In this document: positions 34,809-61,108 of the stretch, in pieces | How the letters are laid out: every line of letters begins with the position of its first letter | How positions within the stretch are numbered: position 1 is the stretch's first letter | Assembly: GCF_038725785.1 (NCBI RefSeq) | Contig: NZ_CP109796.1 | Coordinates: 6,262,501 to 6,326,500, forward strand | Origin: Termitidicoccus mucosus | GTDB taxonomy: Bacteria > Verrucomicrobiota > Verrucomicrobiia > Opitutales > Opitutaceae | Direction of reading: 5' to 3' | Length of the DNA stretch: 64,000 bases | The notes under the pieces: model-generated | Told to the model about the DNA's origin: nothing | The model's database searches: none | The model's input: the letters and a program-made list of their open reading frames with translations, nothing else | Translations under genes and position numbers: made by a program

Positions 34809-34958
34809 GCGAGAGGTGAGTTGGTGTTGAGGTTTTCGTGATACGCTGAGGCAGAAAAGCGTCAGTGGGCAGGCAGGGAGAAACAGGAGGGGTTGCGCCA
34901 ATGGTGAAAGTGTTGCTGAATGAAGACTGGACTAGTGCAATAAAAAATGAAATCAAGA

Positions 34959-43932: not shown

Positions 43933-46779
43933 TCAGAACTCGAACGACGCGGTGAACGTGATTTTTCTTGGGTCATTGTAACGATAATAACCGCGTCCCG
44001 TGCCGATTGGTCCGGTGACCGTCCCGTCCACCCGGTAATCAAGCGAACTGGTGTAGATCACATCGTCATTGTCCAAGATGTTGGCGACGTTGATCTGGAA
44101 ACGCGCGCGGGTCGGGCCGATGCGGCGGCTGTAGGAAACATGGCCGCTGAGAACATAGTAGCTGCCGCTGTAAATATAATGAAACGGCTCGTTGTAATGG
44201 TTGCCGATTTTATTGCGTCCGCGGACATTGACACCAAGACCCACCCCGAGGTTTCTGAACACGCCGCCCTGCACGGTGTAAGTGCCATAGAAATTCGCGC
44301 TGTAATTGACCGTGTTGGTGAGTTTGGTGCCGGGGGTGAGCCCGGTCAGCGTGCTTTGAATTGCGGTAATGTCGTCGTTGATCTGCTGCGTTTTCGCAGG
44401 GTCGGTCGCCGGGTCATTGGTCGCCGCCTGCCAGACGGCAAGGTTGTCATAAAAATATTTCCGCAATTGCGGCATCAGATTCACCGCCTTGGTTTGCGGC
44501 AGGGCGAAGTTTGCCATGATTCGAATGCTCCTGGTGGGATTTGCCGTAATATCAATTTCATACCCGGTTCCCTTGTAATCCCGCGTGTCCCGGTAACTGG
44601 GCATCATAAAATCCGCATACTGATCGCTGGTGTTCTGCCAAAGCCTCTGCAACTCCGATCGGCGTGTGTTGTCATAGCCGGGGACGCCCTCCTGAATTGA
44701 ATTGTAATAATTGATTCCTCCGGAGAGTTTTCCCTTGAAGAAATCGAATTTCACGCCGAATTCCCTTGCCGAGTTGATCGCCACGTCCATGGGCTTCCCG
44801 TAAATGTCGCCATTTCCAGGGAGAGGAATGGCGAATGACTCGGAGTAACCGGCATACACGCCGATTTCCTGCGTGGCTCGAAAGACCACCCCGGCGTTGT
44901 AGCTCGTGGGGGAAATGTCCACATTGGGATCATCCAGCACGATGGGATAGCCCGTGTCATCGTAGCCATATTTGCCCGATGTGGCCCCGCTCTGTTGTCT
45001 TCCTTTATATTTGTCATGTCGCGCGCCAAGGGTGATAATCAGACGCTGCCCGATGAGCTTGGTCGAGCTCACGGCCTGGAGATACTGAAGATCCTGCGAC
45101 GAATAGGTAATGCCGGATGGGCGCCACGCATACGGCACCCCGGTTAGCTCCGGGATTATGGTTTCAAGCGCGCTGGTGTCATGTTGCTGGGGCTCGTCCC
45201 AATACATGCGCGCACGCACGTATGAAAAACCGGGTGAACGATTGTCAACCATCGCGTAAACATAATGCCGGGTATATGCGTCATTCCAACGGGAGCCGGC
45301 CAGCACACTGAGCGACTCGGAAATAAGCCGCCGGTTAAGCTGCCAGTTGACGGCCAGACGGAGGTCCTTGGTGAGGTTTCCCGACTCGGTCCGACCAAGC
45401 ATCTGGTCGGAGAACGGAATACCGTATTTCGGATTAAGGACAAACATCTCGGACGAATTGTTCCTTGGCAGATATTTATTTAGGTCAATTTTGTAATCGC
45501 CAAAGACCGCAAACTCCGCCGGTCCCTCCTTGTCGGTTTTATATTGGTTGTAGGCCAGCTCAATGGAAATGCCATTCTTGAAGCGATGCGTCACATAGGA
45601 GGTGTAGGTATAATACTCGCCTTCGATCACGTCATTTGTCGGCTCGATATTTATCTCCTTGTAAGGCAGCAGCGGCACGTTGGGAATCTCGGCGCCAGGC
45701 TCCGCCTGCATGGAGGCGCCGGAGCCCCGCGTCTCAAAGGTGCTTGACCAATTCCGGTAACCCGCCTCGGGCACGCCGGGAATCCAAAGCCAGTGCCGGT
45801 CGCTCGAATTCAAACCGGAGCGGGTGATGCCCCTGGCATTCATCTGGGCGGTGGTGCTTATTTGGCCCCATCCATACTGGGCATTCAGCGGATCGGACGA
45901 GTCCGCCACATAAACCGAAGTTCCGTCCCAATAAGAGACCCGCTCGGCATAGGTGCCTGCATAGATCGGCCTTTTCCTCTTACCATATTCCGCCTCGGCG
46001 CGTATGTTGGTATCTTTCGTGATGCGCCATGTCGCGGCGAGGTGTAATCCATCCCGCCTAGCATCGGAGCCGTCCCGCCATGTTTCCAACTCCTGAGTCA
46101 TGCCATTCAGGCGGAACGCGACATTTCTGCCGATGGCTTGATTAACATCAAAGGACGCCCTGAAGCCGCCATAGGAATCGGCAAGAAATGAGACGCGCCG
46201 CTCGTTTTTTCCGAGCTTCGCCCGTTTTGTCCACGTCGTGGCAATGCCGCCCAGATAGCCGTCGCCGAAAAGGACACCGTTTGGCCCGCGGGCAAGATCA
46301 ACACGCTCGATGTTGTAGCTGTCGGAATTGTCATACCACAGAAAATAATTCCGCGTCGGGAGGGACAATGACACGCCGCGAAAGCGCACTTGGATGTCGC
46401 CGCTAAACGTGGATTCGGTCGCATAAGAAGGCATCGTGTTGTTGCCCCACTCCGCCTGGGTGGTGTTGTCGAGCAGAACCAGATCGTCGAGAAACTCCCG
46501 CGTCAGAACCGAAACCGACACGGGGCTTTCCTTGAGCAGGCTGTCGGTGCGGGTGCCGGTGAGCGCGCTGGCGGCGGCATAGCCGACATCGCGCTCGCTT
46601 TTCACCTCGAAGACCGAGAGTTCGACTATTTCTTCCGAGGCGGGTACAGGTGCGGTTTGTTGTGCGTTTGCGGCAAGCGCGAACACTTGGAACAGGATTG
46701 CGAACCGACTCAGGCAGCGGAATGGCTGCGCGGCGGCGCCGGCGGATGTCGGATGGGGGAAACAGGGGAACGGGTTCAT
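43933..46779 (-). CDS. TonB-dependent outer-membrane receptor, copy 2
   Basis: 948 residues: signal peptide within the first 40 residues, TonB-box-like EEIVELSVFEV, plug with ASALTGTRTDSLLKESPVSVSV and LARGPNGVLFGDGYLGG, and a barrel ending KITFTASFEF. It resembles receptor copy 3 (ASALTGTRTDSLIKETP) much more than copy 1. It probably imports oligosaccharides for the GH113 operon immediately downstream (61-nt gap). A perfect palindromic operator (46827-46839) lies 47 nt upstream, next to the end of the lacI gene. Confidence 0.94.
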   Translation of the reverse strand: MNPFPCFPHPTSAGAAAQPFRCLSRFAILFQVFALAANAQQTAPVPASEEIVELSVFEVKSERDVGYAAASALTGTRTDSLLKESPVSVSVLTREFLDDLVLLDNTTQAEWGNNTMPSYATESTFSGDIQVRFRGVSLSLPTRNYFLWYDNSDSYNIERVDLARGPNGVLFGDGYLGGIATTWTKRAKLGKNERRVSFLADSYGGFRASFDVNQAIGRNVAFRLNGMTQELETWRDGSDARRDGLHLAATWRITKDTNIRAEAEYGKRKRPIYAGTYAERVSYWDGTSVYVADSSDPLNAQYGWGQISTTAQMNARGITRSGLNSSDRHWLWIPGVPEAGYRNWSSTFETRGSGASMQAEPGAEIPNVPLLPYKEINIEPTNDVIEGEYYTYTSYVTHRFKNGISIELAYNQYKTDKEGPAEFAVFGDYKIDLNKYLPRNNSSEMFVLNPKYGIPFSDQMLGRTESGNLTKDLRLAVNWQLNRRLISESLSVLAGSRWNDAYTRHYVYAMVDNRSPGFSYVRARMYWDEPQQHDTSALETIIPELTGVPYAWRPSGITYSSQDLQYLQAVSSTKLIGQRLIITLGARHDKYKGRQQSGATSGKYGYDDTGYPIVLDDPNVDISPTSYNAGVVFRATQEIGVYAGYSESFAIPLPGNGDIYGKPMDVAINSAREFGVKFDFFKGKLSGGINYYNSIQEGVPGYDNTRRSELQRLWQNTSDQYADFMMPSYRDTRDYKGTGYEIDITANPTRSIRIMANFALPQTKAVNLMPQLRKYFYDNLAVWQAATNDPATDPAKTQQINDDITAIQSTLTGLTPGTKLTNTVNYSANFYGTYTVQGGVFRNLGVGLGVNVRGRNKIGNHYNEPFHYIYSGSYYVLSGHVSYSRRIGPTRARFQINVANILDNDDVIYTSSLDYRVDGTVTGPIGTGRGYYRYNDPRKITFTASFEF

Positions 46780-46826: not shown

Positions 46827-46839
46827 TGTTAGCGTAACA
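46827..46839 (-). promoter_or_regulatory. Predicted LacI copy 2 operator upstream of TonB receptor copy 2
   Basis: TGTTAGCGTAACA is a perfect palindrome (TGTTA/TAACA) except for its GCG centre, 47 nt upstream of the receptor start and one base from the lacI stop. On the receptor's coding strand it reads TGTTACGCTAACA. Confidence 0.75.
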
Positions 46840-46840
46840 G

Positions 46841-47863
46841 TCACTTGGACGACGGACGCCATGCACATTCGACCAGCGTCACCTTCGGTACCGCCGGGAC
46901 GCCCGTCTGGTTGGCGTTTAATTGCTCTATGACCAAGTCCATGACCGCGGCGCCGAGCTCGCGCATGTGGTGGTTCACGCCGATGGAGTTTTTATCCCCG
47001 TCCTCAATGTTGATTAGCGCGATTTCGCACTCCCCGGGCACCCGTATCCCCTCCTCGCGCAGCCAGTCGCATGCATCGGGAAACCCAAGAACGGCGTCGG
47101 GCCGGTGCTGATTATACCATTTCAAAAAAACCTCCTTGGTAAGGGTGACCGCGACCAGCGGCGGCACACGCAAACTACCGCGCACGCTTCGCTGCTCGCG
47201 CAAAAAACCGGCGAGCAGCAATCCGTCGAGCTGCTCGTCCCATTCCTCGGAGAAGGCCAGCCCGATACGCCTGCGGCCCATACACGTGAGATTTTGCCAC
47301 GCGATCCGCGCCGCGTGAAACTGATGGCTGCACGCCCGGTGCAGATTCGGCTGCCTCAGCAAATACCCGCAGGTGGCGCAGGCAAACCGCTCCCACGCCA
47401 GGTCAATCGGCATGCCCGCCGCGGGCGGCGGCGGGATGATGATGCCGCGTATGTTCCGGTGCCAGAGAATGTCGCTCATGCGATGCCCCGTCATGCCGGG
47501 CTCGCCCAGCCAGAATTCCTCCAGCCGGTAGCCCAGGTGCGCGGCCCGCTCGCTGGCGCCGCGAAAAATGTCCATGTTGGTGGGAAACTTTCGCCAGCCA
47601 TTCTTGGTGGCATGAATGGTCAGCCACCCGATCGGTGTGGTTCCCGCCGTGCGGCTGGCGCGCAGCCGGGCCATTAACTGCGACACCACCGGATCGGGCC
47701 GGTAGCCCAGTTTCTCCGCCAGTTTCTTGATGCGCTGTCGCTCCGCCGCCGATACCGCCGGGTCGTCACGCAGCGCCCGTGAGACGGTCATGAGGCTCAC
47801 TCCCGCCGCGTTTGCCACACTGGCCATGGTGATCCGAATTTGATTCGCAGGGGTATTCTTCAT
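46841..47863 (-). CDS. LacI family transcriptional regulator, copy 2
   Basis: 340 residues. The HTH is ITMASVANAAGVSLMTVSRAL (about 11-31), the YRPDPVVSQLMARLR linker is unusual, and the sensor domain spans about 70-335. A CATCGYLLRQPNLHRACSHQFHAAR segment (split by family-typical cysteines) is shared with copy 3, so both belong to one subfamily distinct from copy 1. Reverse-complement operators lie just after its stop (46827-46839) and 65 nt before its start (47928-47940), so it probably controls the receptor on one side, the GH5-NHL gene on the other, and itself. The cysteine-containing sensor part suggests a specialised ligand. Confidence 0.94.
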   Translation of the reverse strand: MKNTPANQIRITMASVANAAGVSLMTVSRALRDDPAVSAAERQRIKKLAEKLGYRPDPVVSQLMARLRASRTAGTTPIGWLTIHATKNGWRKFPTNMDIFRGASERAAHLGYRLEEFWLGEPGMTGHRMSDILWHRNIRGIIIPPPPAAGMPIDLAWERFACATCGYLLRQPNLHRACSHQFHAARIAWQNLTCMGRRRIGLAFSEEWDEQLDGLLLAGFLREQRSVRGSLRVPPLVAVTLTKEVFLKWYNQHRPDAVLGFPDACDWLREEGIRVPGECEIALINIEDGDKNSIGVNHHMRELGAAVMDLVIEQLNANQTGVPAVPKVTLVECAWRPSSK

Positions 47864-47927
47864 TCGGGTGCTTCATGCCCGTCCCATTTTGCCGGCGCAA
47901 GCTGTTTCATGGCGCGCGCCCAAGGAT

Positions 47928-47940
47928 TGTTACGCTAACA
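47928..47940 (+). promoter_or_regulatory. Predicted LacI copy 2 operator upstream of GH5-NHL copy 2
   Basis: TGTTACGCTAACA is the exact reverse complement of the site at 46827-46839. It lies in the divergent gap, 65 nt from the lacI start and 124 nt from the GH5-NHL start at 48065. Confidence 0.75.
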
Positions 47941-48064
47941 GAAAATCTCCCTCCACAGTCCCGCAGCGGTTGCCTACATGGTGTCCGACATTACGGCTCA
48001 CGCCTTGGTTTCCCCCACCCGAAAATCACATCTCGCCACACCGACACCACCCGGTCGCGATCCC

Positions 48065-51000
48065 ATGAAAACCCACTGTGCAACAAATCCTCTCTTCCCG
48101 CCCATGAACACACGCCACACCTCCACCGTCGGACGACGAATCCTCCCGTTCGTTGTCATGTCAGCCGTCACCTGCGCGCTTGCGTCGCCCATCCTGCGCG
48201 CCACGGTCGTCTTCAACGATACCGCCGAAAACAAAGACAACTGGGTGGACAATTATCCCAGCGGCGGCGGCGCGGCCTCGTTCGCGCGGTTCATCGCCAC
48301 CGGCGGGGAATTTCAATACACCGGGGGCAACACCGAAACTAATCTCGTGGCTGGCACCAGTGAATTTTTTTCGGCCAACGACAACCTGGAACTGTCATTC
48401 GACGGCTTCTTTGCCACCGCCTCCAATGGCAGCGCGCTAATCGTTGACATCGGTCTCGCCACCAATGCCATCGCCACCGCCAATGTGAAACTGGGGCTGA
48501 AGTTCACCGCAAGCGGATCAAATGCCAAGCTGGTGTATAATAACACCGAATACTCCCTTGCCGGCAACCGCCCTGTCGCCGGCAGCGCCGCAAACGGGAA
48601 GGCGTCCATCAAAATCGCCTACCAAATCGACGGCGGCGGCACCGTGACCGTCACCCAGCTTGCCGGGACTTACCTGCCCGCCGGTTCTTCCACGGCAACC
48701 GCCGTGCCGCCGGGCGGCGTGGTTTTATATAACGGCAGCCCGAGCGGCTCGCCGATTGATTTCGGCACCGGTTTGCGCATAAGGCTTGTCGGGCGCAATT
48801 CCGGCAGTGGCGGCATCACCACCCCCGTGACCATTGACAACATAAAACTGGCGATGGACGAGGGCGGCGGTGACGGCGTGACCTCCTCCTGGCCGGCCGC
48901 CGCTCAGCGTGGCGTGAATGCCGGCAACTGGCTGACCTCTTACGAAATGGGCCAGACTCTTGCCCCCTGGGGCACAAAACTCATGCGCTTGCAGCTCCTC
49001 GGCTCGGCCCCGCAATTCACGCCCGAGCAGGACGGTGTCAGCGGCGAGTGGACTTTTCCCACCGCCGGCTGGACCGCCATTGATACTTTTCTGACCGCAG
49101 CAAAAAGCAACAACATGAAGGTCGTCCTCGACCTCCACGGCTGCTCGCACTTTTTCCCCAACAGCAACTACAACACATGGTCGCAGGAGCCGGGCGCGCC
49201 GGGCATCGCCAACAAGAACAAACTCGTCAGCCTCTGGAAAACCATCGCCACCCGTTACAAGGACGAGCGCGATGCCATCGCCGGCTACGAAATCCTCAAC
49301 GAGCCGATCGCTGGCGGAGACTTGGACAAGGAAAACGGCGCGGCTCCGCTCGACGGCGCCGACGCGTGGAACACCATCCTCACCGAGGTCATCGCGGCCA
49401 TCCGCGCGATAGACACTTACCACGCCGTCGTGGTCGAGCCGGTCGGCTACGCCAACCAAGCCTACCTCAAGCGCCTGAAATACTTCGATCCGTCAACAAC
49501 GCCGGGCATTGTCTATAGTGTCCACATCTATTCCCCGCACGAATACGCCGAGCAGGGCACTGTCAGCATCCAGCCCCCTTGGAAATTCGGCTTCGACGGC
49601 ATCATCGTCAACGGCACCGCCGTCGGCTCGGGCTATTATTATCCGGGGCTGGTTGACTTCGTCACCAAATACACCGTGCCTTACGAATACGAGACGACCG
49701 TGCTCGACAAGGACTACCTGCGCACCCGAGTCGCCCCCATCCTGGAATTTCAAAACCAGCACAAGGGGGCGCGTATTTACGTCGGCGAGTTCGGCGCCGT
49801 CCGCCACGCCCCCATCAACCTCGCCGGACAAGACAGCACCTGGACATTTCTGCGGGACTATCTTTCCTTGTTTTATAACGACACCCCGTCCGTCAGCCAT
49901 CCGCATTGGGACTGGACGATCCACGCCTTCCAGTTTTCCGCCAACGACCTCTACACCGGCCTGCAATATGACAATATAAAGGAAAGCACCACGCGGCATG
50001 CCGACACCAACAAGATTCGCCTGTATAAACATTATCTGAACCCGGAAAACGACACCGTCGCCCCGCCCGAGTATGTTGATACGCTGCCGGACGCGGCCAT
50101 CCCGGAGACACCGCCGCCCACGCCCTACGGGCTCACCGCCACGGCCCCCGGCTCCGGCCAGGTCGAGCTCGCATGGATCCCCTCCTCCCGCGCCGAGAAA
50201 TACAAGATATGTTATTCCACCTCCGGCAGCGGCGGTCCCTTTGCCGAGCTCGCCGTGGTTGACCAACCGTCCGCCGCCGCGCTCGCCAGCGGTTCCTACA
50301 CCATGGGATACATCGACGGCGAGGACTCGCCGCTGCCCACGGACGCCGTCTATTATTATACTGTTTCCGCCACCAATGCCCACGGGGAAAGCGCCCCCTC
50401 CGCCCCCGCCGGCGTGACCGTCAGCGGCGTGTATATACCGGTGATAAACGAGCAGCCCCAATCGGTCTCCCCCCCGCTGGGCGTCTCCGCGACGCTCTCC
50501 GTCACCCTCAAGTCAACCGTCGGCGTGACCGGTTATCAATGGAGCAAGGACGGCCAGCCCGTCGTCAGCGGCACCAACGCCACCCTCGTGCTCGCCGGCA
50601 CCCCCGCCGACGCCGGTGTTTACACAGTGACCATCACCGGGCTGGACGGTCCGGCTGTCAGCACTTCCGCCACCGTCACCATCCAGCCCGACGCCGCCAG
50701 CCTTTTCAACACCCCCGTCGCGCTCGCCGCCACCGACGCTGGCGAAATCCACGTGGCCGACTCCACGAGGCACATTGTGCAAACGCTCAAGACGGACAAC
50801 ACCGTTTACACATTCCTTGGCGCGCCCGGCTCCACCGGCGCCGTTGACAACAGCGGCACCCACGCCCGCCTCAACGCCCCCTCCGGCCTCGCCGTGTGCT
50901 CCGGCACGCTGTATATAGCCGACACCGGCAACAACTCCCTTCGCGCCAGCGGCGTCGGCGGCTCCCTGAAAACCATCGCCATTGCCCTCAACCGCCCCGC

Positions 51001-51811
51001 CGGCCTCGCCGCCGACAGCGCCGGCAATGTATACATGGCCGACCGAGACAACCATCAGATCCGCAAATTCGCCCCCGGCGGCGCCGTGAGCCTCGTGGCT
51101 GGCAGCGGCACCGCCGGCCATGCCGACGCCGCCGGCGCGCTCGCCAGCTTCAAGTCTCCCGCCGGCCTCGCCCTCTTCGAGACTGGCGGCACGGACGGCT
51201 ACCTCTACGTCGTCGACACCGGCAACCACGCCCTGCGTGTCATCACGCTGGCCACGGGATCCGTCACCACCTTCTCCGGCGCTCCCGGCGAGCCAGCAGG
51301 CCACGCCGACGCTACCGGCACCAACGCCCGTTTCGACTCCCCCGGCGGCCTCGTGGTGGACGCCGATGGCGATCTCTATCTCGCCGATACAGGCAATTCC
51401 GTCATCCGAAAAATCACCCCCACCGGCGTCGTGATAACCCTCGCCGGAGCTCCCGGCCACGCCGGCTTCAAGGACGCCACCGGCACCAACGCCTGGTTCG
51501 ACCATCCCCGCGACATCACCCTCACCGCCACGGGGACACTCGTTGTGGCCGACACCGGCAATCGCGCCCTTCGCGCTATTTCCGCCGCCGATGCCGTCAC
51601 CACGCTTGTTGTCACGAGCGGCACCGCGCCGACTCTTGACCCGCCCGCCTCCGCCGTGCCGGAGATACCACCATTCAACCCGCCGCAAGGCAAACGCGGC
51701 GGCGGCGCGCCAAGCTGGTGGCTCGTCACCGCACTCGCCGTACTCCTCGCCGCCCGCGCATTCGCGAGCCGCCATCTTCACGGGACGCGATTTCAACGCA
51801 TTGGAGGATGA
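48065..51811 (+). CDS. Large secreted GH5-Fn3-Ig-NHL enzyme with C-terminal sorting-like tail, copy 2
   Basis: 1248 residues from the ATG at 48065 (MKTHCATNPLFPPMNTRH; the ATG at 48104 directly before the hydrophobic signal peptide is a serious alternative). Order: jelly-roll module (about 50-275), GH5 barrel from WPAAAQRGVNAGNW (about 276) with acid/base E in GYEILNEP (about 409) and nucleophile in YVGEFGAVR (about 572), Fn3 (681-785), Ig-like (791-875), six NHL repeats (about 879-1190; LYIADTGNNSLRA, LYLADTGNSVIRKI) and a tail GGGAPSWW plus hydrophobic stretch plus basic end. It is a close paralog of copy 1. A LacI operator lies 124 nt upstream. Confidence 0.88.
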   Translation: MKTHCATNPLFPPMNTRHTSTVGRRILPFVVMSAVTCALASPILRATVVFNDTAENKDNWVDNYPSGGGAASFARFIATGGEFQYTGGNTETNLVAGTSEFFSANDNLELSFDGFFATASNGSALIVDIGLATNAIATANVKLGLKFTASGSNAKLVYNNTEYSLAGNRPVAGSAANGKASIKIAYQIDGGGTVTVTQLAGTYLPAGSSTATAVPPGGVVLYNGSPSGSPIDFGTGLRIRLVGRNSGSGGITTPVTIDNIKLAMDEGGGDGVTSSWPAAAQRGVNAGNWLTSYEMGQTLAPWGTKLMRLQLLGSAPQFTPEQDGVSGEWTFPTAGWTAIDTFLTAAKSNNMKVVLDLHGCSHFFPNSNYNTWSQEPGAPGIANKNKLVSLWKTIATRYKDERDAIAGYEILNEPIAGGDLDKENGAAPLDGADAWNTILTEVIAAIRAIDTYHAVVVEPVGYANQAYLKRLKYFDPSTTPGIVYSVHIYSPHEYAEQGTVSIQPPWKFGFDGIIVNGTAVGSGYYYPGLVDFVTKYTVPYEYETTVLDKDYLRTRVAPILEFQNQHKGARIYVGEFGAVRHAPINLAGQDSTWTFLRDYLSLFYNDTPSVSHPHWDWTIHAFQFSANDLYTGLQYDNIKESTTRHADTNKIRLYKHYLNPENDTVAPPEYVDTLPDAAIPETPPPTPYGLTATAPGSGQVELAWIPSSRAEKYKICYSTSGSGGPFAELAVVDQPSAAALASGSYTMGYIDGEDSPLPTDAVYYYTVSATNAHGESAPSAPAGVTVSGVYIPVINEQPQSVSPPLGVSATLSVTLKSTVGVTGYQWSKDGQPVVSGTNATLVLAGTPADAGVYTVTITGLDGPAVSTSATVTIQPDAASLFNTPVALAATDAGEIHVADSTRHIVQTLKTDNTVYTFLGAPGSTGAVDNSGTHARLNAPSGLAVCSGTLYIADTGNNSLRASGVGGSLKTIAIALNRPAGLAADSAGNVYMADRDNHQIRKFAPGGAVSLVAGSGTAGHADAAGALASFKSPAGLALFETGGTDGYLYVVDTGNHALRVITLATGSVTTFSGAPGEPAGHADATGTNARFDSPGGLVVDADGDLYLADTGNSVIRKITPTGVVITLAGAPGHAGFKDATGTNAWFDHPRDITLTATGTLVVADTGNRALRAISAADAVTTLVVTSGTAPTLDPPASAVPEIPPFNPPQGKRGGGAPSWWLVTALAVLLAARAFASRHLHGTRFQRIGG

Positions 51812-52237
51812 GAGTATTGTCGGTATTCAGTTGACCAGCCTTTCGAGCTCCCGCCCGAACATCTCCATCTGGTTTTGCTCCTTTTTTCTTTTCGGTTGCA
51901 TCGCTTTTCCCGGGTTTGTGGGTCATCTGCCTGTTTCCCACGAAAAAACACCCGACATAACTGTGTTAATATATTAATATTAAATGTATTATTAATTTCG
52001 TTATAGGCTGATTATAAACCAAGCAGGCATCTTGCATTTGAGAAATAAAGAACACTTGGGATAACTGGTCCGCTTTGGGGCGGCGAGTTATGAGACGGGA
52101 CCAGGAGTTACTACCTTTGAAGGCGCGGCGCAAGCGCACAACAAGGTCGAAGCGCCCGCAGGGGTTCTCCTCATCTTAAAAACAAGCATGGACCTGGTTC
52201 TCATTGGGAAAATGTTTTCGATCTCGATGCTTTTATA
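51812..52237. other. Gene-free region between convergent GH5-NHL copy 2 and TIM-barrel isomerase genes
   Basis: 426 nt, AT-rich around 51940-52010 with ATTAATATTAAATG-type words, then a GC-rich part (52070-52165). I see no convincing gene, RNA or clear hairpin terminator. Confidence 0.5.
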
Positions 52238-53044
52238 CTACCAACCTTTCAATTTTGCTGCGTCGAGTGCCTCGTTGAGAGAGGGCAGTTCGGAATGCCA
52301 CATTTTTTCCCACTCAAGGCTCACGGAACCCTCGAAGGAAGATTTGCGCAGTGTATTCAGGAGTGTCCGCATGGGGTATTCACCTGCGCCGGGAAGCACG
52401 TATTTGTATTTCCCCTCCGCCGTATCACAAGTGATGCTGTCTTTCACGTGCAGGTGAACGATGTTTGGAGCGATATTTTCCCACGTGGCCTCGGGCGATT
52501 CGCCGCCAATCCGCCAAGTGTGATGGGTATCCCAGAGAATGGAGGTTCCGGAGGGAGCTTCAGCGATAAACTCTTTCAGCTTCGATGAAGTGACCAAGGA
52601 ACTGTGCGTCTCGACCATCACATCGGAGCGCCAGTTGTTCTTCTCGCGCATTTTATGCCACCAATTGAGCGTGGCAACGGACGCGACAAGGTCGGCGACA
52701 CTAACACCGGCGGCGCCGTCGAAGACACGCAGTTTCACGCCGCCGAGCGCCTCGGCCCATGGGATATACTGGAGAAATGCGGCGAGCGCGGCGGCGTCGC
52801 CGGGCAGAAAAAGCGAGGTGTCGAGCGCGATGATGCGGACGGATTGAGCTGCGGCGGCGAAGGCGGCGGGTGTGCCGAACTCGCCGGCGAGCGCGGCGGG
52901 CAGGTCAACGGTGCCGCACGCGGCTCGCAATTCGACCTGACCGATGCCGTGGCGGGCAGCCAACGCGAGAATTTCGCACACCGAAAGCTCCGGACAGCCG
53001 AGACTCGAAAACGCGCGCGGTGGCCCAAGGCGGGGTTGTTTCAT
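52238..53044 (-). CDS. Sugar phosphate isomerase/epimerase family TIM barrel
   Basis: 268 residues of the xylose isomerase-like (AP endonuclease 2) TIM-barrel superfamily. The metal-binding residues are visible in VMVETHSSLV (E), SILWDTHHTW (D, H), IVHLHVKDS (H, K, D) and SVSLEWEKMW (E). Known relatives isomerise or epimerise keto/aldo sugars, inositols or hydroxypyruvate. There is no signal peptide. Its start overlaps the stop of the upstream GH5-NHL copy 3 by four bases, so it is translationally coupled to that enzyme and probably acts on its product. Confidence 0.88.
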   Translation of the reverse strand: MKQPRLGPPRAFSSLGCPELSVCEILALAARHGIGQVELRAACGTVDLPAALAGEFGTPAAFAAAAQSVRIIALDTSLFLPGDAAALAAFLQYIPWAEALGGVKLRVFDGAAGVSVADLVASVATLNWWHKMREKNNWRSDVMVETHSSLVTSSKLKEFIAEAPSGTSILWDTHHTWRIGGESPEATWENIAPNIVHLHVKDSITCDTAEGKYKYVLPGAGEYPMRTLLNTLRKSSFEGSVSLEWEKMWHSELPSLNEALDAAKLKGW

Positions 53045-56000
53045 CGCGCCTTTGTATTATTTCCGCGTCTTTTTCCAGCACGCAGGGCAGACGCGGCGCC
53101 AAGCGCCGCCAGCGCGGCGAGGCACCAGACCGAGGGCGCGCCGCCACCGTGGCCATGGCCGGTTTTATTGCGATGGGTCACTTCGTAAGAGGTATCCACC
53201 TTCGGCAAAGGTGCCGTGCCTGTGGCATAAACCAGTGTCGTCACTTCATTATGTGAACCTATTTGGCGAATGGCTTGATTCTGGGTATCAGCGACATAGA
53301 GGTATTGCCCATCATTGCTGAGGGCAATCCCCTTGGGGTGATTAAACCACGCATTGGTTCCCGTGCCATCCTTGAAGCCGGCCACACCCGAGATGCCGTC
53401 GGTGCCGGGATTGCCGGCGATGGTGGTGACGACTCCGGCGGATGTCACCTCGCGGATGGTTGAATTTCCCGTATCGGCCACATAAATCAGTCCCGAGCCA
53501 TCAACGATAATGCCTTCGGGTTGGTTAAACAGTGCAAATGTTCCAGTGCCATCAAGGCTGCCGGCCAAGCTAGGATTGCCGGCAAGGGTGGTGACTGATG
53601 ATCCTCCATCCAACGCAATTTTTCGAATCGTGTTGTTGCCCGTATCCGCAACGTATAGAAAATTGCCGGAAGCTGCCGAGCCGGATGACTGAAAGGTGAC
53701 TCCGGTCGGCTTGTTAAAGAGGGCCTGCGTGCCGCTTCCATCAGAGACTCCCGCATTCCCGGAAGCTCCGGCAACGATGGTGGCTTGATTTGTCCCCGCG
53801 GCGATCTTCCGAATGACATTATTGTCCGTATCCGCCAGATAGACGTTGCCACCGGGGTCAGTGGCGATGCCCGTCGGGTTGGAAAGGCCCGCCGTGCTTC
53901 CCGAGACAATCGTCGTGGCCGTCATGTTGTCATTGACCGCCCGGACGGCGTTATTGCCGCTGTCGGCTATATAAAGCGTGCCGGAGCGCACCGCGATGCC
54001 GGAGGGTCTTTGGAACTTGGCCATCGTCCCCGAGTCATCGGCAAACCCGCCGATGCCCGATGCGCCCGCGTAAACATACGCGCCATTCGTGGCGGTGATG
54101 GTTTGCACGACATGGAGTGAAGCATCGACAATATACACATCGCCGGCCGCGTCCATCGCGAGCGCCACCGGCCTGGAAAAGATGCCGTCGCCCGATGGCG
54201 TGACGGCGATGGTGGCGGTATCGCTGTCAGTCGTGCCATTGGCGTTGGTGATTTTGACCATGTAATCGCCGGCATTTGCCGGGGTGGCCTCGATGGTGAG
54301 TGTATTGCTTGTGGCGTCTTCAATGAGCACGCCATCCTTATACCATTGGCAAGTCACCGTGGCGCTCCCGGAAACGGTGACGGAAAGCGTGACCCGCGAG
54401 CCATCCGGCACGGTCTGGCTTGCAGGCTGCGCGGTGATTCTCGGCGGCATCGGAGCATTGACGGCGGTGGCATGCGTCTCGTCGCTGTCGGGGCCTTCCC
54501 CGTGCGCGTTGACCGGGGACACAACATAATAATACGTCGTATTGTTCTCCAGATTCTCGTCCGTGTAGCCCATGGTCGGCTCCGTGATGGCGGAAATCGT
54601 GGCGGCTTCGATAAACGGGCCGCCGGACGACAGGGCTCGTTTCAGCTTGTAGTTTGTCGTGCGCGAGGTGGATATCCACGCAAGGCCGATTTTGCCCTCG
54701 CCCTCGACGGTTGACGCAAGGCCATAGGGTTTCACCGGCGCGGTCTCGGGCACCTGCGCGTCGGGCAGCGTGTCAACATAGGCAGGCGGCTCGATCCCGT
54801 CGTTGGAAGAATGCATATAGTGATTATACAGGCGAATTTTGTTTGTATCCGGATAACGTATCGCGGTCTCCCGGTCCTCCTCCTTGATATTGCTGTTTTC
54901 AAGACCGGCATACCCTTCCAATCCACCAAGGCGAAACGCATGCACCGCCCAATCCCAATGCGGATGCGCCACCTCCTCCGCACCGGTATAATGGAAAAGG
55001 TCAAAGCAATCGCGCAGAAAAGTCCATGTGCTGTCCTGTCCGAGGAGGTTGACCGGCGCCCAGCGTTTCGAGCTGAATTCGCCGACAAAAATACGCGCAT
55101 CAGGGTGCGCCGTCTGAAAATCAACGACGGGCACGAGGCGCTCCGCCAGATAATTCTTGTCCAGCAGCATCGGCGTGTATTCGACGGGGGCGTAATTGGT
55201 CAGGCGGTTGAACACCCCGGGATAATAATACCCCGAGACACCGTCGAAGCCGAACGTCCATTTGGGTTCTATAGTCGAGCCTTGCTCCGTGAACTCATGG
55301 GGCGAATAAAAGTGAATGCTGTAGATAATGCCGGGCGTGGTCGCGGGATCAAAGTATTTGAGGCGCGACAGATAGGCTTGGTTGGCGTAGCCGACCGGCT
55401 CGATGACAATATTGTGGTAGTGATCAATCGCGCGGATGGCAGCGACGACCTCCTCCAGTATGGCATTCCAGGCATCAGCGCCATCCAGCGGTTCCGCCCC
55501 GTTGGGCTTGGTTTGGGTCGCATCCGGATTGGGTTCGTTCAAGATTTCATAACCCGCGATGACGCTGCGTTCGTCCTTGTATCTTGTGGCGATGCTCTTC
55601 CAGAGACTGACGAGCTTGTTCTTGTTGGCGATTCCAGGGGCACCGGTCTCCTGCGACCATGTATTATATATACTATTGGGAAAAATGGCTTTTGTGTTGT
55701 GAAAGTCGATGATCACTCTCAGCCCCTTAGACTTGGCTGCGGCGAGGAAATTATCAAGCGTCGTCCAGCCGCTGGAAGGAAATGTCCACTCGACGCCTTC
55801 TTCGATTGGAGTAAACGCGGAACCGGTAAGTTGAGCCCGTACGATTTTGGTTTCCCAAGTCCTCAATACCTCCAAGTCGCCAGAGGTCAGCCATGTGCCG
55901 ACATTGGCACCGCGCTGGGCTTCATCCGGCCATGACATGGAACCGCCCGCCCGTCCCACAAGGCGGAGGTTGTCAATCGTGGCGGGTGGGTCCGCCTGGT

Positions 56001-57336
56001 AGCCGCCGTTGTTGTTGGCACCCGTCGTCATCCGGAAGTGGGTGCCTACGGGGAAGGTCAGCGGAACGCCGGTGGGCATGGCATCGTAAAGCACGATGCC
56101 GCCCGACGGCACCGCAGTCGGCGTGGACGAGCCCTCGGGCAGGTAGGTGCCGGCCAGTTGGGTGATTTTTACGCGGCCTCCGTCGCTATATGAAACATTG
56201 AGCGCCATTTTCCCATTGGACATATCACCGGGGACGGGCCGATTGGCCAATAAATACTCGATATTGTCATACAACAGCGCCGAATTAATACCGGACTGGG
56301 TGAACTTGATGCTGAGCATGGCTTTGTTCGTAGCCTGCGGCGTGTTCAACCCGATTCTAAGGCCCTGTTGGTTCGGATTGGTGCCTGTCTTGTAATAAAA
56401 ATTATCAAAGGAAAACTCGACTTTGCGGTCAGGCTGGAAATCGCGCTTGCTGCCCAAGGCCACATTTGGCGTGCCGTTGGTCAAAGTGAATACAAAACGG
56501 TTCTCTCCGCTGTCGTCCATTACGTTGAAAAAATCCCAGCCGGTTTTGTTGGTGGAAACGGCCTGCCACTTGTCCTTGTTGTCTGCGGGATCGTCGAAAA
56601 CCATCATGTCGGTATCGATGCTTATATTATTGATGGTGGTTGGCGTGCCTTCGTCGAAGCCACCGTTGCCCTGGGTTTCGGCACGGATGACGAACGGGGC
56701 GGCGGCGGGGTCAATCGGAGCGTCAAAGGTTTGGTCGGCCAGTTTTGCGCCGTAAGCGGGGGCGGTCTGCGTCCCACCAGTGTCGCGGTAGCTGCCGCCG
56801 GTTTGCAGGACGACCACGCGTTTCTCGGCGGCGATATAACGGATGCTCAGCGCGACCGATCCGTTTTCGCACACCGGGCCTGCATCGAGCGGATATGCCG
56901 TGCCATTATAATACAAAACTCCGCCATTGCCGCCCGCCGTGACGCCCACGCCCAGCCTGTCGCCGAGGCCTACGACAAAGCGCGCGGCGTCGGGATTCGC
57001 GCGGGATTTCCATTGCAGCGAGTCGAACGAAAGCACGATGTCGCCAAACACACTGAGGCTCGACGAACTCACGAGGTTCACGTTGGGCGCCGTGCCGCCG
57101 GTGTCGCCGCCGGCCGGGTTGGCAAACACGATCCCGCCCACGCCGGCGCTCACTTGGTCGAATCCGGTGGAAAGCGTTTCGGACATTGCCGGGACAAGTC
57201 CCGTGTCGCCATCAATGGCGAGGCTGTCGATCGAGGCGCCCTGCGCGTTGGGCTGGAGGAGCAGGCAGGCTGCGGACAAGACAAGCGCGAACGCTGCCGG
57301 GCGGACGCGGGAATCGGATGCGGTGCGTGTTTTCAT
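53041..57336 (-). CDS. Large secreted GH5-Fn3-Ig-NHL enzyme with duplicated N-terminal module, copy 3
   Basis: 1431 residues with signal peptide (MKTRTASDSRVRPAAFALVL, hydrophobic to about 35). Two successive jelly-roll modules (about 35-250 and 250-465) replace the single one of copies 1 and 2. The GH5 barrel starts WPDEAQRGANVGTWL (about 468), with acid/base E in GYEILNEPN (about 598) and nucleophile in IFVGEFSSKR (about 754). Fn3 (870-960), Ig-like (963-1055), six NHL repeats (about 1060-1365) and a tail GHGHGGGAPSVW plus hydrophobic stretch plus RAGKRRGNNTKAR follow. It is divergent from LacI copy 3, whose operator lies 135 nt upstream. Confidence 0.88.
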   Translation of the reverse strand: MKTRTASDSRVRPAAFALVLSAACLLLQPNAQGASIDSLAIDGDTGLVPAMSETLSTGFDQVSAGVGGIVFANPAGGDTGGTAPNVNLVSSSSLSVFGDIVLSFDSLQWKSRANPDAARFVVGLGDRLGVGVTAGGNGGVLYYNGTAYPLDAGPVCENGSVALSIRYIAAEKRVVVLQTGGSYRDTGGTQTAPAYGAKLADQTFDAPIDPAAAPFVIRAETQGNGGFDEGTPTTINNISIDTDMMVFDDPADNKDKWQAVSTNKTGWDFFNVMDDSGENRFVFTLTNGTPNVALGSKRDFQPDRKVEFSFDNFYYKTGTNPNQQGLRIGLNTPQATNKAMLSIKFTQSGINSALLYDNIEYLLANRPVPGDMSNGKMALNVSYSDGGRVKITQLAGTYLPEGSSTPTAVPSGGIVLYDAMPTGVPLTFPVGTHFRMTTGANNNGGYQADPPATIDNLRLVGRAGGSMSWPDEAQRGANVGTWLTSGDLEVLRTWETKIVRAQLTGSAFTPIEEGVEWTFPSSGWTTLDNFLAAAKSKGLRVIIDFHNTKAIFPNSIYNTWSQETGAPGIANKNKLVSLWKSIATRYKDERSVIAGYEILNEPNPDATQTKPNGAEPLDGADAWNAILEEVVAAIRAIDHYHNIVIEPVGYANQAYLSRLKYFDPATTPGIIYSIHFYSPHEFTEQGSTIEPKWTFGFDGVSGYYYPGVFNRLTNYAPVEYTPMLLDKNYLAERLVPVVDFQTAHPDARIFVGEFSSKRWAPVNLLGQDSTWTFLRDCFDLFHYTGAEEVAHPHWDWAVHAFRLGGLEGYAGLENSNIKEEDRETAIRYPDTNKIRLYNHYMHSSNDGIEPPAYVDTLPDAQVPETAPVKPYGLASTVEGEGKIGLAWISTSRTTNYKLKRALSSGGPFIEAATISAITEPTMGYTDENLENNTTYYYVVSPVNAHGEGPDSDETHATAVNAPMPPRITAQPASQTVPDGSRVTLSVTVSGSATVTCQWYKDGVLIEDATSNTLTIEATPANAGDYMVKITNANGTTDSDTATIAVTPSGDGIFSRPVALAMDAAGDVYIVDASLHVVQTITATNGAYVYAGASGIGGFADDSGTMAKFQRPSGIAVRSGTLYIADSGNNAVRAVNDNMTATTIVSGSTAGLSNPTGIATDPGGNVYLADTDNNVIRKIAAGTNQATIVAGASGNAGVSDGSGTQALFNKPTGVTFQSSGSAASGNFLYVADTGNNTIRKIALDGGSSVTTLAGNPSLAGSLDGTGTFALFNQPEGIIVDGSGLIYVADTGNSTIREVTSAGVVTTIAGNPGTDGISGVAGFKDGTGTNAWFNHPKGIALSNDGQYLYVADTQNQAIRQIGSHNEVTTLVYATGTAPLPKVDTSYEVTHRNKTGHGHGGGAPSVWCLAALAALGAASALRAGKRRGNNTKAR

Positions 57337-57471
57337 GATTGTTGGCTCAGGGTTGTGTAGGGATGGGTGTTGTGCGAATGATGGGCGCTCGAGAAACAGG
57401 AGGGGAAGCGCGGTCAGAGAAGGGTGACGGAAGCCTTACGGACAACGCGCGAAGGATGGCAGTCGATTTTA

Positions 57472-57486
57472 GCGTTATCGTAACGC
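57472..57486 (-). promoter_or_regulatory. Predicted LacI copy 3 operator upstream of GH5-NHL copy 3 and lacI
   Basis: GCGTTATCGTAACGC is a palindrome (GCGTTA/TAACGC) around TCG, in the divergent gap: 51 nt before the lacI start and 135 nt before the GH5-NHL start. In the GH5-NHL direction it reads GCGTTACGATAACGC. Confidence 0.75.
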
Positions 57487-57537
57487 AGCGTGCTTGCGCT
57501 TGCCTTGCTTTCTGTGTCGGATTGAGTCTCTGGCGGC

Positions 57538-58551
57538 ATGAAAAACACCCCAAGAATCACGATGGCCGCAGTCGCGCGGTCGGCTAAAGTTAGCTCGATG
57601 ACCGTGTCGAGGGCGCTGCGGGATGATGATTCTATTCCCGCGAACACCCGGGAGCGGATAAAAAAAATCGCGGAAAAGCTCGGCTATCGTCCCGACCCGA
57701 TGGTTTCGCAACTCATGGCGCGCCTGCGCGTGAGCCGGACCGTCGGCACGATGCCCATTGCATGGCTCACGGCGCATCCCGCGGAAAACACGTGGCGCGG
57801 GCTTCCCACCAGCGGGGAAATTTACACCGGGGCTCGCGCACGGGCTGAGCAACTCGGTTACCGCTTGGAAGCGTTCTGGCTGCGGGCGCCCGGCATGACA
57901 GGGCGGCGCATGAGTGACATTTTATACAGCCGCGGCATTCGCGGCATCGTCATCCCTCCGTTGCCCGCCGGAGGCGGCACGATCGATTTGGCGTGGGAGC
58001 GTTTTGCGTGCGCCACCTGCGGCTATTCGCTCCGGCAGCCCGTGCTCCACCGCGCGTGCAGCCACCAGTTTCACGCCGCGCGCATCGCATGGGACAACTT
58101 TGCCAAACTGGGCAAACGGCGCATCGGCCTCGCGTTTTCCGTGGCGTGGGACCGGCAGCTCGACGGGCATCTGCTCGCCGGATTCTTGCGTGAACAGCAC
58201 GACGCGACCGCCTCACGTCGCGTACCGCCGCTCGTCGCACCGGCGCTCACGCGCGAGGTGTTCATGCGGTGGTTTCGCCAGCACCGGCCCGACGCCATCC
58301 TCGGCGCTCCTCAGGCGCGCGATTGGCTGCGGGATGCCGGAGCGGCGGAAAAATGCGCGCTCGCGCTGATCAATATCGAGGACGGCGACGGCACCTTCCG
58401 GGGCGTCAACCACCATTTGCGCGAACTCGGAGAGTCCGCGGTTGACCTCGTCGCCGTCCAGCTCAGCTCCAATCAGTCCGGGATTCCCGCCGTGCCCAAG
58501 GTGGTGCTGGTGGAATGCTCATGGCACGAGCCGGTGGCGGCGTTACGATAA
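57538..58551 (+). CDS. LacI family transcriptional regulator, copy 3
   Basis: 337 residues, paralogous to copy 2: HTH ITMAAVARSAKVSSMTVSRAL, linker YRPDPMVSQLMARLR, sensor-domain FACATCGYSLRQPVLHRACSH, and the end VPAVPKVVLVECSW are all shared. Its stop codon lies inside the second operator (58540-58554), which is the exact reverse complement of the operator upstream of its start. It probably represses GH5-NHL copy 3, itself and the downstream BNR_4/dehydrogenase/TonB-receptor genes. The conserved paired cysteines in both paralogs may contribute to ligand or metal binding, which is inference. Confidence 0.94.
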   Translation: MKNTPRITMAAVARSAKVSSMTVSRALRDDDSIPANTRERIKKIAEKLGYRPDPMVSQLMARLRVSRTVGTMPIAWLTAHPAENTWRGLPTSGEIYTGARARAEQLGYRLEAFWLRAPGMTGRRMSDILYSRGIRGIVIPPLPAGGGTIDLAWERFACATCGYSLRQPVLHRACSHQFHAARIAWDNFAKLGKRRIGLAFSVAWDRQLDGHLLAGFLREQHDATASRRVPPLVAPALTREVFMRWFRQHRPDAILGAPQARDWLRDAGAAEKCALALINIEDGDGTFRGVNHHLRELGESAVDLVAVQLSSNQSGIPAVPKVVLVECSWHEPVAALR

Positions 58552-58554
58552 CGC
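58540..58554 (+). promoter_or_regulatory. Predicted LacI copy 3 operator upstream of the BNR_4 operon
   Basis: GCGTTACGATAACGC is the exact reverse complement of 57472-57486. It overlaps the lacI stop codon (58549-58551) and lies 40 nt upstream of the BNR_4 start. Confidence 0.75.
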
Positions 58555-58594
58555 AAACACGCCTTTGCCCGCCGGAGCCGGCGCGTTTTTCGTG

Positions 58595-59992
58595 ATGCCA
58601 ATGATGACGCGCACCACCCCGGACGCTCCCGCATCCCCCAGCAACGCCACGGCAGATCGCACCGTGCTGCCCGCCCCGGTCAATGGTTACCGGGGCATCT
58701 GGTATGCCCTCGGCTATGTGTATGAGCACGGCGACAAATACTCCGGCGGACTGGGGACATATACCGCGGACCACGTGCCGATGGCGGTTTACGCCCCGGC
58801 GGTCAAAAAAACCTTTTTCACCTACGGCGGCACGACCGGCGAGACGCAGCGGCAGCTCGTCATCATGGTCTCCTACTATGACCACGCGCGGCACGAGATT
58901 CCGCGCCCGGTGGCGCTGCACACCGACATCGGCGTGGACGACCCGCACGACAACGCCACGCTGCATATCGACGCGGACGGTCATATATGGATTTTCAAGA
59001 GCGGTCGCGCGCTCATGCGGCCCGGCATTATATACAAAAGCCGTGCGCCTTATTCCATTGAAGCGTTTGAAAACGTCTCACAGCAGGAGTTCACCTATCC
59101 GCAGGCGTGGCCTGTTGACGGCGACGGATGGCTGATGCTGTTTACCAAATATCGGCACGCGCAGCCGCCCCACCTGCACCGCGAGCTGTATTGGAAAACC
59201 AGCCGTGACGGCCGCGGCTGGAGCGCCGACACCAAGCTCGCGGGCTTCGGCGGCCACTATCAGGTCAGCGCGCGCGCCGGCCGGAGAATCGGCACGTTTT
59301 TCAACTGGCATCCCGGCGGCGACAATGACCGGCGCACGAATATCTACTATGCGCAGACAGACGATTTTGGCAAAACTTGGACCAATGTCGCGGGCAAACC
59401 CCTCGCGCTGCCGCTCCCGGGGCCGGTCAACGACGCGCTGGTCGAGGATTTGCAATCGCATGGACGACTCGCTTACACCAGCGACCTCAATTTCGACGAA
59501 ACCGGCGCCCCTGTGCTGCTTTTTGTGACAAGCAGCGCCGCCGAACCCGGTCCGAGGGGCGAGCCGCGCGAGTGGACGACACTGCATTGGCGTGACGGCG
59601 CATGGCGTCGTCGCGTCGTCACCACAACGGGTCATAATTACGACATGGGCAGCCTCTACGTGCATGGAAAGAAGTGGGGCATCGTCGCGCCCAGTGAGCG
59701 CGGTCCGCAGGCGCCGTGGGCCGGCGGCGAGATGGCGCTTTGGGTTTCGCCCGACGAAGGCGCGACATGGAAACGCGACGTCCAGATAACAAAAAACAGC
59801 CTGTATAATCATAGTTACGCCCGCCGCCCGATCGGCGCGACGGACCCGTTTTATTCATTCTGGGCCGACGGCGATCCCACGAGGATGAGTCGTTCGCATC
59901 TCTATTTCTGCGACTCCACCGGACGCAACGTCTGGCGGCTTCCCTACAACATGGACGCCGCAACCGCCAAACCGGAAAAGATCCGGACATGA
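58595..59992 (+). CDS. BNR_4 family protein (beta-propeller, sialidase/lyase-like)
   Basis: 465 residues from the ATG at 58595 (further ATGs at 58601 and 58604); the frame upstream crosses the operator and lacI. It begins the family core with NGYRGIWYALGYVYEHGDKYSGGLGTY (split by the GIWY motif), followed by repeated propeller blades with Asp-box-like segments (DFGKTWTN, DEGATWKRD, TSRDGRGWS). PF15892 members include ulvan/rhamnogalacturonan-type lyases and other uncharacterised glycan enzymes; exact activity is not readable. There is no convincing signal peptide, so it may act in the cytoplasm. It is 10 nt upstream of the dehydrogenase gene. Confidence 0.75.
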   Translation: MPMMTRTTPDAPASPSNATADRTVLPAPVNGYRGIWYALGYVYEHGDKYSGGLGTYTADHVPMAVYAPAVKKTFFTYGGTTGETQRQLVIMVSYYDHARHEIPRPVALHTDIGVDDPHDNATLHIDADGHIWIFKSGRALMRPGIIYKSRAPYSIEAFENVSQQEFTYPQAWPVDGDGWLMLFTKYRHAQPPHLHRELYWKTSRDGRGWSADTKLAGFGGHYQVSARAGRRIGTFFNWHPGGDNDRRTNIYYAQTDDFGKTWTNVAGKPLALPLPGPVNDALVEDLQSHGRLAYTSDLNFDETGAPVLLFVTSSAAEPGPRGEPREWTTLHWRDGAWRRRVVTTTGHNYDMGSLYVHGKKWGIVAPSERGPQAPWAGGEMALWVSPDEGATWKRDVQITKNSLYNHSYARRPIGATDPFYSFWADGDPTRMSRSHLYFCDSTGRNVWRLPYNMDAATAKPEKIRT

Positions 59993-60002
59993 TTATATAA
60001 AA

Positions 60003-61046
60003 ATGAAATCCTCCAGCCCCGCATCACCCCGGACAGCACATCGCATTCTTTTCGCGATGTCCGGCGGCGCGTTGACAACGTTCCTGCCCGGTTTCGACCC
60101 GGACGTATTTTCGCCGCGCACCTGTCGCTGCATGCCGACCGACGGAATGGATGCGGAAACGTGGAAAAAACTGCTTTTCGAATACCGTCCGACCATTCTC
60201 GCAAGCTGCTGGGGCACGCCGCGCATCCCCGGTGAGTTCATCGATGCGCCGGAATTTTCGCTGCACTATCTCTGCCACCTCGCAGGCACGGTCCGCTACG
60301 TCGCTCCGCGCCGCCTGCTCGAAAGGGACGTGCTCATATCGAACTGGGGCAATACCATCAGCCACACCATCGCCGAACACGCCGTGCTGCTGACGCTGGC
60401 CGCGCTGCGTTGCACGCCGGAGTGGCGGAAGATCTTCACGCTGCCTGAAAAAGAACAAAATGCCGCCGTGCGCGCGCTACCCACCCGCAGGCTTTGCGGC
60501 AAGCGCGTCGGACTGCACGGCTTCGGGGCTATCGCGCGCGAACTCGTCCCCTTGCTCAAGGCGTTTCATGCGGAAGTGCTGACGCATTCCGATGGCGTGC
60601 CTGTCGAAGAACTCCGACGCTGCGGCGTGCGGCCCTGCGCCACCATGGAGGAATTGTTTGCCAGCAGCGACGTGCTCATCGAATGCAAGGCGCTCACCGA
60701 GCGGACGCGCAACCTCGTCACCGGCCGCGTGCTTTCGCTGCTCCCGCGGGATGCGGTATTCGTGAACATCGGACGCGGCGCGGTCGTGGACGAGGACGCG
60801 CTCGCCCGGCTTGCCGCCGAAAAACGCATCCGCGTGGCGCTCGACGTGTTCGCGCAGGAGCCGCTCCCGGTGACATCGGAACTGCTCGCCACCGAAGGCA
60901 TTGTACTCTCCCCGCACATCGCCGGTCCCACGCTGGATTCGCTGCCGGATTGCGGACAACTGGCGCTGCAAAACATCCGCCGCTACCTCGATGGAAAGGA
61001 AATCGAGGCCGCTGTCACCCCTGCCGTCTATGACCGCGCCACGTGA
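60003..61046 (+). CDS. D-isomer-specific 2-hydroxyacid dehydrogenase family protein
   Basis: 347 residues. The substrate-binding domain lies at both ends and the NAD-binding Rossmann domain is central: VGLHGFGAIARELVPLL (G-x-G-x2-A), CKALTERTRNLV, FVNIGRGAVVDEDAL, DVFAQEPLPVT (catalytic Glu) and SPHIAGPT (catalytic His). It is expected to interconvert a 2-hydroxy acid and 2-oxo acid with NAD(P)H. The N-terminal 45 residues are more divergent. It overlaps the region leading into the TonB receptor by a few bases and probably belongs to the BNR_4 operon controlled by LacI copy 3. Confidence 0.9.
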   Translation: MKSSSPASPRTAHRILFAMSGGALTTFLPGFDPDVFSPRTCRCMPTDGMDAETWKKLLFEYRPTILASCWGTPRIPGEFIDAPEFSLHYLCHLAGTVRYVAPRRLLERDVLISNWGNTISHTIAEHAVLLTLAALRCTPEWRKIFTLPEKEQNAAVRALPTRRLCGKRVGLHGFGAIARELVPLLKAFHAEVLTHSDGVPVEELRRCGVRPCATMEELFASSDVLIECKALTERTRNLVTGRVLSLLPRDAVFVNIGRGAVVDEDALARLAAEKRIRVALDVFAQEPLPVTSELLATEGIVLSPHIAGPTLDSLPDCGQLALQNIRRYLDGKEIEAAVTPAVYDRAT

Positions 61047-61108
61047 TGTTTAAGGCGCGCGATGCGATCATAATTTTCTCCAAGAACCCAATAAAACGCC
61101 CATCCCAA

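Follow-up and report, generated by a model that had tools for sequence, protein, structure and literature searches.

Operator-like sites around two paralogous lacI genes suggest a local glycan regulon in Termitidicoccus mucosus

Two paralogous LacI-family regulators of Termitidicoccus mucosus lie in a glycan-related gene cluster together with five exact copies of the pseudo-palindrome GTTACG(C/A)TAAC, each preceding a structural gene. We consider it likely that these five words are the operators of the two paralogs, where repressor dimers would hold the structural genes down until an oligosaccharide releases them. The sites were found in a stretch of 64,000 nucleotides, hereafter the window, and were followed through the whole genome and through lacI loci of other genomes.

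Results

Five operator-like sites in the window

Four sites had been predicted, forming an inverted pair around each lacI gene, and all four are present exactly at the positions proposed (Table 1). That list was incomplete: a fifth exact site (23571-23581, minus strand) lies 5' of a GH2 gene and its likely ATG. All five give GTTACG(C/A)TAAC when read in the direction of the structural gene, and the single orientation proposed for the asymmetric centre accordingly holds throughout. The 3-bp centre is CGC or CGA with its CG off centre, and none of the five sites is a canonical even palindrome with a central CG. Types A and B differ at the central base, as had been noticed, but not there alone, as the outer pair is T...A in type A and C...G in type B. 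The GH2 site (CGTTACGCTAACA) is mixed, with a left half of type B and the remainder, centre included, of type A; both regulators may therefore act there, by a putative cross-recognition between LacI1 and LacI2. The last site (core 58542-58552) contains the TAA stop codon of lacI2.

With start codons chosen by inspection, sites end 42-164 bases before the structural genes, as for ordinary operators; more than 75% of LacI-family sites lie at 30-140 bp (PMC4052901, section 9). Scans of three places returned no sigma-70-like promoter in any of them and 1, 1 and 0 terminator-like sites, not above shuffles. A terminator-like stem with a T-rich tail is located at 58570-58583, in the intergenic stretch from lacI2 to BNR_4, in a region where the number of such stems does not exceed that of shuffles.

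Table 1 Operator-like sites and associated genes in the window (distance, bases from site end to likely start codon)
Feature	Positions	Strand	Distance	Evidence or context
Fifth operator-like site, mixed type GCGTTACGCTAACA	23570-23583	-		exact core GTTACGCTAAC at 23571-23581
Operator-like site, type A	46827-46839	-		between lacI1 and TonB receptor gene; core GTTACGCTAAC at 46828-46838
Operator-like site, type A	47928-47940	+		between divergent lacI1 and GH5-NHL; core GTTACGCTAAC at 47929-47939
Operator-like site, type B	57472-57486	-		between divergent GH5-NHL and lacI2; core GTTACGATAAC at 57474-57484
Operator-like site, type B	58540-58554	+		over lacI2 stop codon; core GTTACGATAAC at 58542-58552
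GH2-family glycosidase, signal-peptide-like start, putative target	20601-23513	-	57	Pfam Glyco_hydro_2_N, _2, _2_C on frame 20601-23624; start picked by inspection
TonB-dependent receptor, putative target	43933-46779	-	48	Pfam
lacI1, LacI-family regulator, helix VSLMTVSRAL	46841-47863	-	65	Pfam PF00356 and PF13377; fold search
GH5-NHL gene, putative target	48065-51811	+	125 or 164	start 48065 or 48104 (two possible starts); Pfam on frame 47978-51811
Xylose-isomerase-like TIM barrel	52238-53044	-		Pfam PF01261; frame overlaps end of second GH5-NHL gene
Second GH5-NHL gene, putative target	53041-57336	-	137	Pfam
lacI2, LacI-family regulator, helix VSSMTVSRAL	57538-58551	+	53	Pfam PF00356 only; 68% identical to LacI1
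BNR_4-family gene, first of putative operon	58595-59992	+	42	Pfam on frame 58442-59992
2-hydroxyacid dehydrogenase-like gene, putative BNR_4 operon	60003-61046	+		NCBIfam sub-threshold matches
TonB-receptor-like gene, putative BNR_4 operon	61043-63946	+		NCBIfam sub-threshold matches; 58% identical to first receptor

Clustering and pairing of the sites

The genome (7.92 Mb, two contigs, 96.5% complete) contains five copies of GTTACGMTAAC (2 forward, 3 reverse), all of them in the window and within 35 kb. The genome-wide number by itself is not unusual, as the pattern read backwards also has five occurrences; what stands out is the clustering within 35 kb. With one mismatch allowed, there are 57 matches compared with 157 for the backwards control. 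The looser pattern GTTANNNTAAC is found at 14 places, five of them in the window; the other nine, inspected with 1.5 kb on either side, look unrelated; none is an exact window word, and none was accepted as a regulon member. Several fall within long frames, L236 has no frame of 150 aa around it, and L237, L239 and L241 lie 6-143 bases 5' of a frame.

The pairing around each lacI gene was corroborated by a strict matched-palindrome test of the sequences before and after lacI, in which the two window genes score 15 and 13 against a maximum of 6 among 879 mismatched up/down pairings from 74 LacI loci. L026, the only other of the 74 loci above zero, scores 6, a value reached by 0.2% of mismatched pairs. 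The strict test missed looser pairs at L067, L070 and L038/L071 and is therefore no proof that bracketing is unique.

Two LacI paralogs and the question of looping

Both proteins possess a LacI-type helix-turn-helix (PF00356; 55.3 and 53.8 bits, cut-off 27). LacI1 also has a periplasmic-binding-like effector domain (PF13377; 26.7 bits, cut-off 26.5), and its model (pLDDT 93.9) finds CelR, RbsR, CcpA, SghR, LacI and PurR as best Foldseek matches. LacI2 yields no Pfam match in its effector-domain region; an identity of 68% to LacI1, which agrees with the paralogy originally proposed, makes an equivalent domain probable. LacI1 reaches 23.4 bits against the GntR equivalog cut-off of 433 and is therefore not the same protein as GntR, and LacI2 has no match to that model at E 0.001. 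The recognition helices of the two paralogs differ at one residue, Leu or Ser before Met, and among 30 own-genome LacI loci examined (of 36 matches) they alone carry the MT-x-x-R helix. Both regulators have candidate palindromic operators near their own gene. The 36 genome matches to one LacI query imply that these bacteria appear to run much polysaccharide use via LacI regulators. A first-look search gave 188 LacI candidates in the related genome G005 (7.4 Mb) and, run in the same way, 52 in the own genome.

The inverted pairs had been interpreted as looping cassettes, in which a tetramer or paired dimers bridge the two sites and a ~1.1-kb loop over lacI co-represses or insulates both sides. 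The centre-to-centre distances of 1101 and 1068 bp match the spacing given for such loops, and sites on both sides of lacI recur at 6 of 41 regulators. E. coli LacI, however, tetramerises through a C-terminal helix that is absent from the LacI1 model (a monomer), where the chain ends after strand 334-336. Every site, moreover, already has its own gene to control, the fifth is solitary, and most regulators with a site have it on one side only (26 upstream, 7 downstream and 6 both, of 41). Looping or insulation is thus improbable. We favor operators of a local regulon, where the bracketing reflects a regulator gene flanked on both sides by units that it controls itself; a regulon of this kind also accommodates the fifth site, at a distance of more than 20 kb, better than two closed cassettes would.

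Gene content and ancestry of the cassettes

Cassette A has the order TonB receptor, lacI1, GH5-NHL, and cassette B the inverted order GH5-NHL, lacI2, BNR_4, dehydrogenase, TonB receptor. Protein identity between the two is 68% for the regulators, 58% for the receptors and 50% for the GH5-NHL proteins, and the TonB, lacI and GH5 parts still align as DNA (65-69% over stretches of ~0.9-2.7 kb), as would befit diverged copies of one ancestor. This residual alignment also lends something to the idea that the matching sites are functionless leftovers of the duplication. The DNA alignments nevertheless end short of the sites, which yet have an exact 10-base frame in common; the fifth site lies outside the duplication and the motif is retained at comparable places in relatives, so that leftovers are the remotest of the explanations considered here.

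The TIM-barrel gene is probably co-transcribed with the second GH5-NHL gene. No exact site precedes the third GH5-NHL gene (31116-34901), which shares 61% identity with the first. Further window genes encode GH113, GH130, a UxuA-like protein and two MFS sugar transporters, neighbors that suggest beta-mannan as the substrate, whereas the solved structures nearest to the GH5 domain are those of endoglucanases and not of mannanases. Also within the glycan cluster, adjoining a TonB receptor gene, is a protein of the ADP-ribosylglycohydrolase fold (PF03747; 26666-28186).

For operators of a local regulon, the following course can be envisaged. In the absence of inducer, LacI dimers would occupy the sites and keep the TonB receptor, both GH5-NHL genes, the BNR_4 operon and the GH2 gene low; a beta-glycan breakdown product, perhaps a manno-oligosaccharide (a guess), would then bring about release. 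The site upstream of each lacI, within a divergent promoter region, probably also serves autoregulation, and the downstream site would allow the next gene to be controlled separately from lacI despite the same reading direction.

Recognition helix and motif co-occur across genomes

The LacI genes compared came from the own genome, from its family, order and phylum, and from named genomes; none of those counted had been chosen by operator sequence. With duplicates and frames lacking a readable recognition helix excluded, 181 LacI frames were retained, 101 of which have the core M-T-[VA]-[STG]-R. Within -300/+30 of the lacI start or -40/+300 of its stop, GTTA-N3/4-TAAC is present at 52 of these 101 MT-x-x-R regulators (49 have none in the intervals searched), compared with 1/22, 0/11 and 0/47 in three other helix groups (1/80 in total). 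Spacers 3 and 4 account for 60 of the 64 near matches over spacers 0 to 9 (29 and 31), and the same loci contain 60 N3/N4 sites in 67 kb near lacI versus 23 in 676 kb further out. A count with other intervals, keeping unreadable helices in the last group, gave an upstream site at 26/41, 1/15 and 0/74 regulators.

A hold-out set was assembled solely with a DNA pattern encoding the helix; many of its downstream stretches, with a 1.5-kb flank to the helix, are short. Sites are present at 11 of its 27 regulators. Of all 256 arms GTTA is the commonest here, and the eleven remaining permutations of its letters yield 0-3 regulators apiece. The anticipated link between LacI subfamily and motif thereby extends to other genomes, and with the helix-to-operator rule holding in the hold-out, part of these regulons would become predictable from sequence.

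The motif also changes with the helix. Where Leu replaces Arg, TTTA-N3/4-TAAA is found at 9 of 20 regulators (spacers 3 and 4, 8 and 1; 5 more with spacer 2) and GTTA at none of the 20, while the TTTA arm occurs at 5/101 Arg regulators and 0/58 remaining helices. Genome G053 harbors a near-minimal pair, L068 (VSQMTVSRSL) and L072 (VSQMTVSLSL), 57% identical, with CGTTAGCCTAACG just 5' of the former and TTTTAGCCTAAAA just 5' of the latter. No consistent relation links the outermost base of the arm to the residue preceding Met, as Ser goes with C...G in lacI2 and with T...A in L212. These data bear on the notion that a different DNA-binding protein uses the sites, whose position next to lacI would then be accidental; examples would be an AraC-type regulator with its gene in the window (14140-15036; NCBIfam sub-threshold matches) or some factor from another part of the genome. 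Since the motif tracks the LacI recognition helix across genomes and the Arg to Leu change is accompanied by a change of the arm, we judge this very unlikely and retain LacI1 and LacI2 as the probable binders.

The suggested scan of relatives succeeded only for the looser motif. Among five related genomes, the counts of exact GTTACGMTAAC are 1, 5, 0, 0 and 3. No more than two of these nine copies are at a relative of a window lacI, and another (L231) falls within a lacI gene of a different helix type. As a mark of the lineage the exact word fails; what is conserved is GTTA-N3/4-TAAC. At L097, L098, L102, L103, L196 and L207, the ATG within GTTATG(A/T)TAAC words coincides with the predicted lacI start or lies close to it, and the operator-like word may overlap the regulator's own start codon in these cases.

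Bracketing in other genomes

The six regulators with sites on both sides are the two window genes and four in other genomes: L067 (G005), L070 (G053), L038/L071 (G134) and L092. In L067 and L070, GTTACCCGTAAC precedes lacI, and GTTACGCTAAC stands between lacI and a long gene without Pfam match. L085 has only a downstream site, before a gene similar to that of L067 and L070; the gene after lacI in L067 and L085 belongs to no Pfam family at E 0.001. G134 displays GTTAACCTAAC near the lacI start and an inverted copy at the stop, then a BNR_4 gene as in cassette B, and a third copy in the same orientation precedes another gene. Beside the upstream copy in G134 there is no divergent gene; by inspection, the place is taken by an AraC-like frame on the same strand. 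When the count is restricted to sites that face a gene (three in cassette A, two in B and two in G134), orientation is uniform within each set, which is expected by chance in 1/16 and is suggestive only.

Hinge, spacer and central CG

The predicted hinge helix of LacI1 spans 15 residues (58-72) compared with 7 (52-58) in a canonical control modelled identically, in blocks with pLDDT of only ~65 and ~54. Val occupies the position of the conserved hinge Ala in LacI1, and the hinge Leu is kept; among long-hinge proteins, Val, Leu or Ile is found at this position in 78 of 83. Hinge classes were assigned with regular expressions in which Ala or Gly helped to define the canonical class, leaving 17/101 unclassified; on this basis, 4-bp sites have a central CG at 16/16 canonical-hinge regulators and at 1/13 long-hinge regulators. 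Long-hinge regulators of both helix types account for 33 sites with a 3-bp spacer, 10 of these with any CG step, and canonical ones for 1. Counted as regulators, N3:N4 is 21:12 for the long hinge versus 1:16 for the canonical hinge, a link confounded with lineage because canonical-hinge regulators come mostly from other phyla. Within the same phylum, L197 and L206 combine a canonical hinge with 4-bp CG sites, and L205 a canonical hinge with a 3-bp site. Asp versus Asn or His at the hinge start gave spacer counts of 19:3 versus 2:9 (raw p = 2.5e-4), and was rejected as a switch between 3- and 4-bp spacers, with only about one independent informative pair on the tree.

The long hinge, the lost Ala and the off-centre CG suggest a changed hinge-DNA contact, on evidence that is correlative and confounded with lineage; the link of long hinge and 3-bp spacer is unproven because the tree shows too few independent changes. 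We tentatively raise the possibility, which we regard with some doubt, of a verrucomicrobial LacI class with its own DNA-binding mode: a hinge helix about twice the usual length, without Ala, needing no central CG, with half-sites possibly 1 bp closer and the helix code kept, so that half-site choice and spacing or bending would evolve separately. If the long hinge does alter spacing and remove the central CG, these proteins would be a natural test of DNA bending by the hinge helix, of value in what is among the best-studied repressor families.

Comparison with known LacI systems

E. coli GntR, a gluconate repressor also of the LacI family, resembles the window regulators in its helix (VTKMTVSRFLR) and its GTTA/TAAC half-sites. 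Published GntR sites are ATGTTACCGATAACAG and ATGTTACCCGTAACAT (passage in PMC10450161), and upstream of gntK two GTTA-N4-TAAC sites (L225:2626-2650) overlap with starts 13 bp apart, an arrangement described for the gntK operon in section 9 of PMC4052901. The spacer is 4 bp in GntR sites and 3 bp in window sites, and the target genes differ. In the LacI-family code of Camas, Alm and Poyatos 2010, a recognition-helix Arg goes with G (PMC2978694, section 6); this link, and the local regulation of a regulator's own neighborhood treated in the same section, parallel the present case. Half-site, Arg-G link and local regulation are already known.

The binding mode described in PMC2978694 depends on a central CG and on two conserved hinge residues, Ala and Leu. 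The LacI-family regulons of Ravcheev et al. 2014 resemble the window in having palindromic sites close to the gene of the regulator, and a passage there gives autoregulation in 72% (PMC4052901). According to section 9 of that paper, 1251 of 1303 LacI motifs are even, 1173 have a central CG, and odd motifs (17, 19, 21 nt) make up 4%; the window sites, odd with an off-centre CG, depart from this majority. E. coli lac operator O1 is likewise an odd pseudo-palindrome with an asymmetric centre, but has one base more than the symmetric site, as a passage of PMC2978694 states, whereas the window sites are one base shorter than the 4-bp form. Sections 6, 9 and 11 and further passages of PMC2978694 make no mention of an operator shortened by one base, and a 3-bp spacer with a long hinge does not appear in those sections or in section 9 of PMC4052901. 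The main text of PMC4052901 contains neither 'Verrucomicrob' nor 'Opitut', and no paper on LacI operators in Opitutaceae or Verrucomicrobia was found by title or abstract among the matches listed.

Repeated words upstream of the GH2 gene

At 23676-23765, 5' of the GH2 gene, two words of the GAGGCCTCGGAGAGGCCT type stand in inverted orientation ~55 bases apart. A longer version, GGAGGCCTCTCCGAGGCCTCC, has 13 copies genome-wide against none for its backwards control; with several close inverted pairs among these copies, it represents a REP-like dispersed element.
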